Below, piece by piece: positions 15,888-63,396 of a stretch of 64,000 bases of DNA; position 1 is the first letter of the stretch, and every line of letters starts with the position of its first letter. This DNA comes from Anarhynchus alexandrinus (taxonomy: Eukaryota; Chordata; Aves; Charadriiformes; Charadriidae). A program made the position numbers and the translations under genes. Below the pieces are notes generated by a model that was given only the letters and a program-made list of their open reading frames with translations, was not told where the DNA came from and made no database searches. The stretch spans positions 1,562,519-1,626,518 of the forward strand of contig VUYV01000156.1 of assembly GCA_008711295.1 (NCBI GenBank). Reading direction: 5' to 3'.

Positions 15888-15915
15888 GTCTGTACCATCG
15901 GGTCTGTACCATCGG
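15888..15915. repeat. 14-bp tandem duplication
   Basis: GTCTGTACCATCGG occurs twice head to tail, at 15888-15901 and 15902-15915, five bases before the 25-bp dispersed repeat copy. Confidence 0.9.
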
Positions 15916-15919
15916 CTGT

Positions 15920-15944
15920 AATCCCTCTGGAAGGTCATTAATTG
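15920..15944 (+). repeat. 25-bp perfect dispersed duplication, copy 1
   Basis: Identical over 25 bp to 28933-28957; begins AATCCCTCTGG and ends GGTCATTAATTG. Flanks are not clearly alignable beyond a few bases. Antisense translation contains NDLPEGL, which recalls a stretch before the catalytic motif in LINE reverse transcriptases, but no catalytic motif follows. Origin unknown: relic of an old repeat or a shared regulatory module. Confidence 0.85.
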
Positions 15945-22309: not shown

Positions 22310-22850
22310 CAGGATTATTTTTCCAGAGTTGAAAACATTGTACCGAGAAATTACATCCTGTCAATTTGGGAGAAAATAAATGGTCTTCCCCCTCAGCAGC
22401 CAGCCAAGGCAGCGCTGTCCCCGCACCGCCGACCGGCGGGTAGCTCCTTCTGTGCAAGCAGAGCTGAAAAAGGTGTGTGAACACGGCTCTGGGTAGTTTG
22501 AGTCTCTTTTTTTTTTATCCCCTTCTTTTTTAAAGCATCACTAATACTCGGAGAGGCTGCATTTCACAGCAAAGTTTGCACGAACTATAAGGCAGCATGT
22601 AACTGCTGGTGGTGGTGCCTAATGAAGTGTGTTTGAAATATTGAAGTATATGATAAACCATTATGTAAATTAAACTCATTGATAGCTCTGCTATGAAATC
22701 GCTCTGGTAGCAGAATAGTAGATAAACATGGAGCTTAGAAGGTGTCATTTATTCATCCTTAAAATGGTTCCGAGTTTCTAGTGATTCATTATCATCCAGC
22801 AGAAAACAAAGAGAACATTAGTTTCACGACTAAACTCCCGAGAAAGGCTC
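22310..22850. promoter_or_regulatory. AT-rich candidate conserved element
   Basis: The core, about 22520-22810, is AT-rich with TGTAAATTAAACTC and ATTGATAG motifs near 22663-22685 and no convincing open frame. It sits between two CpG-rich stretches, as several islets in this window do. Confidence 0.4.
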
Positions 22851-28683: not shown

Positions 28684-28761
28684 CCAGGTGATGCACAATG
28701 GAGCAATTAACCCAGGTGATGCACAATGGGGGCAATTAACCCAGGTTATTAGGCAATTAAC
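28684..28761. repeat. Tandem repeat of an E-box plus CAATTA module
   Basis: Three head-to-tail units at 28684-28711 (28 bp), 28712-28740 (29 bp) and 28741-28761 (21 bp, internally deleted). Each begins CCAGGT and ends CAATTAAC. Units 1 and 2 carry the E-box CAGGTG; all three carry the homeodomain core CAATTA. Confidence 0.85.
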
Positions 28762-28932: not shown

Positions 28933-28957
28933 AATCCCTCTGGAAGGTCATTAATTG
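28933..28957 (+). repeat. 25-bp perfect dispersed duplication, copy 2
   Basis: Same 25 bp as 15920-15944, in the same orientation, about 13.0 kb away. The flanks differ, and the adjacent 14-bp tandem duplication of copy 1 is not present here. Confidence 0.85.
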
Positions 28958-34500: not shown

Positions 34501-35332
34501 AGCACACGCCTCTCGGCTTTGCTGCACGGGGTGTTTCTCCCCCACCTCGGCCTCGGGCTGCTGCCCCACCGTCGCACCGGCCACCAACCCGTCTGCCCAC
34601 CCTGCCCAAGGGCACCGCCGACCGCTCGGCGTCCACGCTGACGCCGCGACTGCAAAGCTCGCGAAGCTGCGTTAGGCAACGCCAAAAAAAGGCAAAGAGA
34701 GAAGTGACGGAAAGGCAGAGCATGCTCAAACGGAGTGACGCCCTCCCCCAGCCCCTTTTGCCCAGTCTCCCGGCTTCTTATCCCTTTTTTTCCTTCACTT
34801 TAATCTTCCCACTGAGGTACTTGGCTTGGAGAAACGCTAGGTTCAGGCCAAGTTTCGAGGCTTTTCAGACTCAGACTTTTTCTGTAGTCCTGTCTGAAGA
34901 AGAAGGGGGGAAAAAAAAGTAGCTAAAGATTTTCCAGTGGGAAGAGAGTATTTTCTCTTCTCCCATAACTCCGACACAGCCAAAGGAATTTTTCTCAAGC
35001 TTGAAAACAATTCACCTTCAGGCAAAGAACAAGCATGGAAAATTTAAGCCCAGCAGGTGAATGTTTGGGAAAATTTTTAGCCTATAGAAATTCTCATGTA
35101 ACCTTAACTATAGGGGTCGCTGTATGGCATTTAACCATTATGCAGCACCCTCCTCCACGCTGCCGGCTGTCATCGGCTTTCCCAAAGACAGCTACAAGTA
35201 TTGGCATGAGAAAATATGATCTTGAAAAAAGCACACACCCAACCCCTTGAAAGCACTGTGCAGTGGCTGAGGCTCTTCCCCGCGTCTCGGTTCCCCCGCC
35301 GAGGGTCGCCCGCTGGCTCGCTGCCGGCCACG
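34500..35332. other. Mixed stretch before minisatellite
   Basis: GC-rich to about 34760, then AT-richer to about 35260. Nothing recognised as a gene or mobile element. Confidence 0.35.
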
Positions 35333-35503
35333 CAGGCAGGGACCCCCGGCAGGCAGGGACCCTGGGCAGGCAGGGAACCCCAGCAGGCAGGGACCCCCGG
35401 CAGGCAGGGACCCCGGGCAGGCAGGGACCTCCAGCAGGCAGGGATCCCCGGCAGGCAGGGACCCCGGGCAGGCAGGGACCCCCAGCAGGCAGGGACCCCC
35501 GGG
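35333..35503. repeat. 17-bp minisatellite with 51-bp higher-order period
   Basis: Ten head-to-tail units, each starting CAGGCAGGGA and 17 bp long (the last is 18). The unit ends cycle in threes: CCCCCGG, CCCCGGG, then a CAG-ending form, repeated three times plus one. The array therefore has a 51-bp superstructure. Because 51 is divisible by three, repetitive open frames occur on both strands; I see no sign that they are genes. Confidence 0.95.
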
Positions 35504-36600
35504 CGGGCAGCGACGGAGCTCGGCAGCCACCGCGCCTGGGACCACACAGGAATGCACACAGGCTGCAAATTCAGCTTTGCTGAGCAGCCCGGACTCAGTG
35601 TATATATTTCAGTTAATCAGAAACAACCGAGCCACCAAGAGACTAATGTCACCGTAGTTAACCAGCCACCGCGGGACCTTTGCAGGGAAGGCTCCAGCGC
35701 GTCCTCTCAGCCCGATGACGCGAGCTACCGTCCGAGCAAACATCCCCAGAAAAAGCAAGCAAGCTAAATATCTCCTCAGCAGAGCACTAACTCTGTGCCT
35801 GCGTGGCAGATCCACCGTGTCCCCTTCCAGCTACACGGCACCACCACTCAGCTGATCCTGAAAATTTAAGCTAGGATAAAGCTCCTTTCTTCCCCCAAAT
35901 CCTTCTTCATGACATTCCTCCAGAAATACCATTTTTAGCAGAGAGCATCCAAACGCTGCTCAGCTGAGCGGATGCCAGAATGGCAAGGCCGGCTTCATCT
36001 GGAGATGTTCTGGTGCACTGACCAAGAGGAAAGAACACAGACCTTGGACCCCAGACCTTGCCTGACACTCCCAGGCAGGGAGAACCATTTACCAAGCAAG
36101 GTGGCTTTGAGTCCCTCTAACAACCATCCCTTCCCCCGGGCAGGAGCAGCTGCACTGAACGACAATGTTCGGCCAAAAAGAGAGGGAATTTTGCCACTGC
36201 TCAGAATTAACCATAACGAGTCATCTCTATGCCACTGCTCTGGACTGCAGACTCCCGTTGGGGTGTGGGGGTACACGTGCATCGCGGTCCCAGCCGGAGC
36301 ACCCAGGAGGAGCAGCGGCAGCGTGCTCACCCATCTGCCCGCCAGGAACAGCCAGCCTCCCCAGCGGTCCCAGCGCCGGTCCTGGGGCAGCCCACGGCCG
36401 CGGACTCACCAGAGCATCCCTGCAGTGCAGCCCGCGGAGCGGACCCTACCGCCCGGCTGCCGGCCAGACCCCGACCCGGGCATGGGACAGAGAGTCCTTT
36501 GGGAGTGAAGACACATGGCCACGCGCCGCTTGGCACGGGCGGCCCACCGGACCACGGATCCCACACCCCACCAGCAGGGCAGCTCGTCTGCTGGAGAATA
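35504..36600. other. Mixed noncoding stretch
   Basis: GC-rich at about 36260-36580, AT-richer at about 35580-35940. Frames up to 183 codons overlap the minisatellite or each other and show no domain. Confidence 0.4.
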
Positions 36601-52970: not shown

Positions 52971-53640
52971 GGCTCCGAGGGGTCCCTGCGGCGGCAGGGC
53001 GGTGGGTGCCTTTAGAAAGGCATCACTAAGAGTCCCAAGCGTTTTCCTGACGATGCTCAGCGTGGTTCGGTGCGCCAGGCCGCCTGCGGGGACCAAGGCG
53101 GGGGTCTGGCTCAGAGTGGCCCCGGGTGCCGCGGCCACCGTCCCCCCTCCTGAGCTCACGAGCTGAATTTCCCTACTGGAAAGAAAAACTGCATGACCCG
53201 CTGGCCAAGTCTATCTTGCCGCCATCGGTGGGGATGTTGCATTGGGCCGATGGAGGTGCCAGCCGTGCTGCGCACACCGGTGTTGGCTGTGCCAACAGCC
53301 GGGTCAGAGCGACGCACACAGCGACGACGATGCGACCCCAGAGCCACCTCAGTGGGAAAAAAAAAAAGTCAGATAATTACAACTTTTGTAAAGAAAGCAA
53401 CCGCTCCACCCCTCAGCAGCCCTGGCCCAGCGGCAAGGTTGCGGTTTCACTGGTACGTTCATTTCTTTTGCCGAGCAGAGGACACCGTCTGCCGCCCTCT
53501 CCTCTCGCAGGAAAGGGCTTTCGGGTCCCCCCACCCGCACGGTCCAGAGGGGCGGCTGCAGTGACGGGCGATGTGCCCCGGGCTCTGCCCGGGTACCGCT
53601 GCCTTCCACTGGCCTGGGAAACACAGGTTGCGTTTAAAAT
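52970..53640. other. GC-rich stretch carrying a dispersed duplication
   Basis: GC-rich DNA with an 11-A run at 53357-53367. It holds the first copy of the 35-bp perfect duplication. No coding function is recognised. Confidence 0.4.
53162..53196 (+). repeat. 35-bp perfect dispersed duplication, copy 1
   Basis: Identical base for base to 59242-59276 in the same orientation. It begins GCTGAATTTCCC and ends AAAACTGCATGA. The flanks differ from the first base outside. It is not part of any repeat family I recognise. Shared constraint, an ancient repeat relic, or recent local copying would each fit. Confidence 0.9.
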
Positions 53641-53870
53641 GAAAGGAGGAAAAGGGGAAAAAAATCTATTAGACATCATGCATTTAACCAATTCCGACTT
53701 GACCAGAATCCAATAAAATGCAGTTCATACAACATTTTTATTGCTAATTGGTTTGACTCTTAAAATTTAAATGCATGAAGTTACTTTAATGACGGACAGA
53801 GTGGACCTTGTTAACCTTTAAAAGGGTCTTAATTCATTTATATACCTCCTAAAACGCTTTGCACTTCTCC
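53640..53870. promoter_or_regulatory. AT-rich candidate conserved element
   Basis: AT-rich islet with TTTTTATTGCTAATTGG near 53734, AAATTTAAATGCATG near 53764 and TCTTAATTCATTTATATACC near 53826. Bounded by CpG-rich DNA at 53870. Confidence 0.4.
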
Positions 53871-58960: not shown

Positions 58961-59140
58961 ATATTCGCTGGGCGGCTCGGCCGGCTGCGGGCTGCCCTCG
59001 GCCGTGGCGGAGGTGCCAGCGGGGTGCGGGAGGGCACGGCGGTGACGGGGGGACCCGGAGCTGCGCCGGGGCCGGGGGGACCCGGGTCAGGGAGCACCGG
59101 GCAGCCGCTGGCGCTCGCCTGGACCGGGGCCTCCGCTAGC
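58960..59140. other. CpG-rich stretch with G-quadruplex motif
   Basis: Extremely GC- and CpG-rich. Four G-runs with loops of 2, 4 and 3 bases at 59068-59092 meet the usual G-quadruplex pattern. Confidence 0.5.
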
Positions 59141-59290
59141 AGAGGGCTTCCATTAGCTGCACATGTGTAGAGCAGCGGGGCTGTAATTTGAAGACATGTA
59201 ACACAGACTGTTTACATTTTTGCAATCCTGGATAGTTATGCGCTGAATTTCCCTACTGGAAAGAAAAACTGCATGAGCGGGGAATGCGGA
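59140..59290. other. AT-richer pocket ending in a dispersed duplication
   Basis: A 140-bp AT-richer pocket with ACATGT twice, near 59160 and 59192. It ends in the second copy of the 35-bp duplication. Confidence 0.4.
59242..59276 (+). repeat. 35-bp perfect dispersed duplication, copy 2
   Basis: Same 35 bp as 53162-53196, 6,080 bp downstream. This copy lies at the edge of an AT-richer pocket, whereas copy 1 lies in GC-rich DNA, so the two local settings differ. Confidence 0.9.
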
Positions 59291-59760
59291 GAAGGAGGAG
59301 GCTTCTCCCCTCCGGAGCAGGGGGGGATGCATCGCATCTGGGAGCGGGCTCGGGAGCGGACACGCGCCCTCGCTGCGCCGGGCCGAGGGGCCCCCGGCGT
59401 CCCTGCTTGGGCGAGGGGGCTGCAGCCCGCGCTGGTCACGCTGGGCAGCCCGGGCGGTGGGACTGCTCACGGCCGGGGGCTGCCCGTGCCCTGCCCGAGA
59501 GGCTGGCAGCCCACCGCGGGCAGCCGCAGGGCTGGTGCCACACCGGCAGAGGGGCAGAGGTGGGGTCCTCGCCCGGGGCAGAGCTGGGACCCCGCTCCAG
59601 CCGTGCTCCCACGCCTCTCGCCGGGGTCGGCCCGAGGCTGCTGTGCCTCCGGAGCCGGAGCGAGGGGCAGCGCCCCGCAAAGCTCCGCACGGAGCCCCAC
59701 CACCATCACCACTGGCTCTGCTGCGTGTGGGGATGCACCTGCGGTCACAGGTTGGGGACC
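59290..59760. other. CpG island-like stretch
   Basis: CpG-dense to about 59680. Overlapping frames on both strands, alanine-, glycine- and arginine-rich, no domain. Together with 58960-59140 it could be one island split by an AT pocket. Confidence 0.4.
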
Positions 59761-63358: not shown

Positions 63359-63396
63359 TAAAAAAAAAAAAAAAAAANAAAAAAAAAAAAAAAAAA
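63359..63396. repeat. Poly-A run with ambiguous base
   Basis: About 38 bases of A with a single N at 63378. No retrocopy or LINE body is recognised upstream, so this is called a homopolymer. The N marks uncertain consensus in the assembly. Confidence 0.85.

Follow-up and report, generated by a model that had tools for sequence, protein, structure and literature searches.

Doublets, as Thomas et al. reportedly defined them in PNAS in 2004, are exact matches of 25–100 bp that lie mostly on the same strand and close to one another and do not belong to known repeats; they are said to be known from mammals, one plant and one worm, with a peak in spacing near 1 kb. Repair-mediated duplications, which Pace, Sen, Batzer and Feschotte connect with the doublets of Thomas et al., have been surveyed across vertebrates (Pace et al., 2009; PMC2671141). 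In the portions of that survey drawn on here, 824 of 1,136 human duplications have their donor within 5 kb, and deletions, filler or microhomology were encountered at 51 of the 68 human breakpoints examined, while for chicken, with inserts of 50 bp or longer considered, six cases are given, equivalent to a density of 0.08 per Mb of TE DNA (PMC2671141). One compendium of flies and primates ascribes 80–90% of short insertions to simple or complex tandem duplication, and on that account distant templates are not the usual source (PMC2374710, as far as cited here).

Within the 64-kb stretch of DNA analysed here (the window), the 35-bp sequence GCTGAATTTCCCTACTGGAAAGAAAAACTGCATGA is present twice in direct orientation, identical at 35 of 35 positions and with a start-to-start spacing of 6080 bp (Table 1), as the first-pass annotation had recorded. 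The accompanying judgement that such a match is far beyond chance is upheld. When the window was simulated 60 times under a local order-3 Markov model, every run had 15–19 bp as the length of its longest dispersed direct repeat, counting copies separated by 500 bp or more and excluding words that occur at least 30 times; a 19-bp core of the 35-mer has two matches in the window at up to three mismatches, against a shuffle mean of 0.02; and the pair is recovered by blastn of the window against itself with E = 1.7e-10. It is a true, non-chance short paired duplication. The edges of the match had been described as sharp, and the adjacent bases do differ on both sides, but every maximal match ends in this way and the edges provide no independent evidence. 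The contrast drawn between a GC-rich setting for one copy and the edge of an AT-rich pocket for the other is reflected in GC content measured in 35-bp steps, which runs 0.74, 0.40 and 0.66 around 53162 and 0.34, 0.40 and 0.66 around 59242. The 300-bp flanks of the two copies show no homology beyond that of random window pairs (alignment scores of 123 and 101, against a null distribution with a median of 80, a 95th percentile of 141 and a maximum of 192), so that no longer duplication is still visible, and a remnant of a segmental duplication was rejected on this ground.

The window contains 79 AT-rich pockets, defined as merged 100-bp windows with a GC content of 0.43 or less, which total 20,725 bp, about a third of the sequence, and are set amid GC-rich DNA. 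The pocket that holds the 59242 copy, to which that copy itself contributes, is bordered to the left by sequence with a GC content of 0.83–0.86 and to the right by sequence in which GC rises from 0.66 to 0.83 (35-bp steps), and it is a candidate conserved non-coding element; the pocket-rich window as a whole might be a gene desert with many such elements. A GC-rich minisatellite with a 17-bp unit, 10.7 copies and a 51-bp higher-order unit occupies 35332–35514, and a poly-A run at 63360–63396 contains the only N of the window, at 63378.

Table 1. Features of the two direct pairs and their surroundings in the window; donor and acceptor follow the inferred direction of copying.
Feature	Coordinates	Strand	Remarks
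14-bp tandem duplication, GTCTGTACCATCGG x2	15888..15915	+	Perfect; four bases before the 15920 copy begins
25-mer copy 1	15920..15944	+	Likely acceptor
25-mer copy 2	28933..28957	+	Likely donor
35-mer copy 1	53162..53196	+	Likely acceptor; outside the AT-rich pockets listed
AT-rich pocket	59140..59296		GC 0.46 over 157 bp; holds the presumed donor
35-mer copy 2	59242..59276	+	Likely donor (template); near the right end of the AT-rich pocket

Apart from tandem arrays and poly-A, the sole other exact repeat of at least 18 bp in the window is a second direct pair, AATCCCTCTGGAAGGTCATTAATTG, the copies of which are identical at 25 of 25 positions and lie 13.0 kb apart. Their flanks score 103 and 149, the latter slightly above the 95th percentile of the same null distribution and below its maximum. 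The longest inverted repeat, by comparison, measures 17 bp and falls within the simulated range (maximum 20). The highest-scoring matches within the window reach 64.4 and 46.4 bits and are followed by matches of 35.6 bits, two direct and one inverted. Two direct matches thus reach at least 40 bits, where simulation gave a mean of 0.05 per run and never more than one; matches of at least 35 bits were simulated with means of 0.5 (direct) and 0.2 (inverted) and maxima of 3 and 1; and there is a mild excess at 30 bits and above, with 20 direct and 16 inverted matches where simulation gave means of 7.1 and 6.25 (maxima 12 and 11). The existence of two direct pairs points to more than one duplication event of this type in the window.

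Immediately beside the 15920 copy is a 14-bp tandem duplication (Table 1), which could be a repair scar. A local repeat as long and as near as the one at this junction was found at 0.7% of 2000 random positions, which, allowing for the eight junctions tested, corresponds to a chance of about 5%. Local repeats at the remaining seven junctions are unremarkable. Four of these seven belong to the 35-mer, and a local repair scar was sought at those four and not found; at the left junction of the 53162 copy, for example, the longest local repeat is 5 bp, a length reached by 76% of random positions. The pentamer CTGTA, which lies within the 14-bp unit, recurs a third time spanning the junction with the 15920 copy. 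The interval 28684–28746, which lies some 190 bp upstream of the copy at 28933, consists of 2.2 repeats of a 29-bp unit (94% matches).

Taken together, the 35-bp pair is most likely an ordinary break-repair copy. The first-pass annotation had proposed either a constrained module or a dispersed element, and each retains some support (see below), but the most ordinary explanation, templated insertion during the repair of a break, was omitted. That the pair is a doublet generated by such an insertion, a known kind of event, is the reading we favour, with somewhat better than even confidence. Copying probably proceeded from 59242 to 53162, because the 35-mer forms an island of 40% GC within DNA of 66–74% GC at 53162 and because its composition is continuous with the left flank at 59242 and foreign at 53162. 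It can be proposed that a germline double-strand break occurred near 53162 and that a free 3′ end primed synthesis approximately 6 kb away, at the edge of the AT-rich pocket at 59242; roughly 30–35 bases would then have been copied before the strand was displaced, and the break would have been rejoined by end joining or synthesis-dependent strand annealing. The pathway responsible may have been synthesis-dependent annealing or one that employs polymerase theta, and a polymerase that re-copies local sequence before it jumps might be expected to leave a tandem duplication such as the one beside 15920. At 53162 a GA is common to the left flank and the insert's end, and at 59242 a GC is common to the insert's start and the right flank; both are 2-bp matches that are easily met by chance.

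A perfect insert of this kind would be young relative to the substitution rate and need not be under selection. The neutral rate is near 2e-9 per site per year, at which the 70 sites of the two copies would acquire one change in about 7 million years, so that a perfect pair, if unconstrained, is probably young. Against the doublet reading is the absence of imperfect pairs, some of which a steady neutral process should leave: no clear decayed pair was detected in the window, and no match lies between 46 and 36 bits, although weak matches of 30 bits and above are in mild excess. The lack of a local scar at 53162 also speaks against it, as does the spacing of 6 kb, which exceeds the 5 kb within which most of the human donors lie. 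Likewise, given the low density in chicken, two short pairs in 64 kb would be a large number if shorter inserts were not far more frequent. The scarcity of distant templates, the low chicken density and the lack of decayed pairs together keep a constrained pair alive as an explanation.

According to that explanation, which we regard as unlikely, two enhancers of a single target gene share the 35-mer as a transcription factor binding cassette, and selection keeps both copies identical. Perfect pairs unaccompanied by decayed ones fit constraint, and the 79 AT-rich pockets, together with the lack of recognisable coding sequence in the frames and segments scanned, would fit a regulatory-rich gene desert. 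A core, CCCT(N)CTGGAA, is moreover common to both pairs, and CCCT followed by zero to two bases and CTGGAA has four sites in the window, four on the plus strand and none on the minus strand, which are exactly the four copies. This core was, however, noticed post hoc and is only modestly unusual: in sets of 2000 each, the similarity is equalled by 19 random 25-mers, by 87 25-mers matched for GC and by 111 shuffles. The 53162 copy, in addition, lies outside the listed pockets. Resemblances to STAT, EBF and kappaB sites and to the CTCF core fit poorly, and none is claimed. The duplicated conserved non-coding elements (dCNEs) known so far lie near paralogous genes, and base-exact 35-mers that lack flank similarity and share one locus are not described in the part of that work cited here (PMC2781166). 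The broader proposal that all four copies belong to one undescribed type of module built around CCCT(N)CTGGAA, in one orientation within a gene desert and held base-exact by selection, is very improbable.

The scans for coding sequence were as follows. Open frames cross both copies of the 35-mer, which are translated in one and the same frame as AEFPYWKEKLH. A coding function for the 35-mer was rejected, since a Pfam search of 10 open frames chosen from the many in the window gave nothing above the cut-off (the best match, to DUF3108 in the frame at 53051–53713, scored 12.9 bits where 26 were required, with an E-value of 0.096), the copies overlap none of the top-scoring codon segments listed, and no AG that could serve as a splice acceptor directly precedes the 59242 copy. 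The highest codon score among those segments, 32 bits, belongs to 22533–22748 on the minus strand, which is without a Pfam match; neither the codon scores of the segments listed nor Pfam on the 10 chosen frames revealed a coding exon. No tRNA was found, Rfam returned no matches at the gathering threshold over the whole window, and a search of 701-bp stretches at E-values up to 1 yielded no Rfam match overlapping the 35-mer copies. A sub-threshold match to RMST_1 at 53010–53062 on the minus strand (16.5 bits against a cut-off of 40, E = 0.28) is probably due to chance. The hairpin that TTTCC and GGAAA could form within the 35-mer is weak, with a z-score of -2.15 alone and of -0.05 and -0.16 when the flanks are included.

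A further possibility is that the 35-mer derives, as a fragment, from a dispersed repeat, known or undescribed, of which the source genome holds many copies; finding two of them within 6 kb of each other would then be natural. The 19-bp core, nevertheless, occurs no third time in the window on either strand at up to three mismatches, no further self-blastn match at E-values up to 1 overlaps the copies, and at neither is there an Rfam match, a poly-A tail or a tandem array; membership of a repeat family is considered unlikely. An assembly artefact, in which one copy of the 35-mer was misplaced, is scarcely credible, since the 25-bp pair would require a second error and, to our knowledge, misassembly does not usually take the form of a 35-bp insert in otherwise unique sequence without Ns close by, even though the window does have one N, in its poly-A run. 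A viral or prokaryotic origin was also rejected: there were no exact matches among viral contigs, a 24-bp core had no match among the genome contigs searched, and the interval 59100–59330 had no plasmid match. Sequence strings tested against the text of the papers searched gave no match.

If the pair is a doublet, it would add to the known cases of a process by which short, ready-made binding sites become scattered around a locus, and the inserts, at 25–35 bp, would be smaller than the 50-bp cut-off given in the vertebrate survey (PMC2671141, as cited above). Two such events in 64 kb would hint that short ones are commoner than the chicken figure for longer ones implies. If the pair is instead constrained, two enhancers would share a base-exact cassette, an unusual situation.

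In comparison with doublets as they are reportedly defined, the two pairs are exact (35 of 35 and 25 of 25 positions), same-stranded and linked, whereas their separations of 6.1 and 13.0 kb differ from the peak near 1 kb that doublets are said to show. The 35-bp pair resembles the dCNEs in consisting of two non-coding copies that possibly lie in regulatory DNA, and differs from them, as the pair is known here, in that dCNEs sit near paralogous genes (PMC2781166, in the part cited). It differs from the repair-mediated duplications, as described in the cited portions of the survey, in its length of 35 bp, against a cut-off of at least 50 bp, and in its spacing of 6.08 kb, against a proximal class within 5 kb (PMC2671141); these figures are limits of a pipeline and of a class, and the claim made here is that the pair works like such duplications while being placed under the doublets. 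Like them, it consists of one extra copy of nearby unique DNA that has been carried without its flanks, a type of duplication known from chicken (PMC2671141, same portions).
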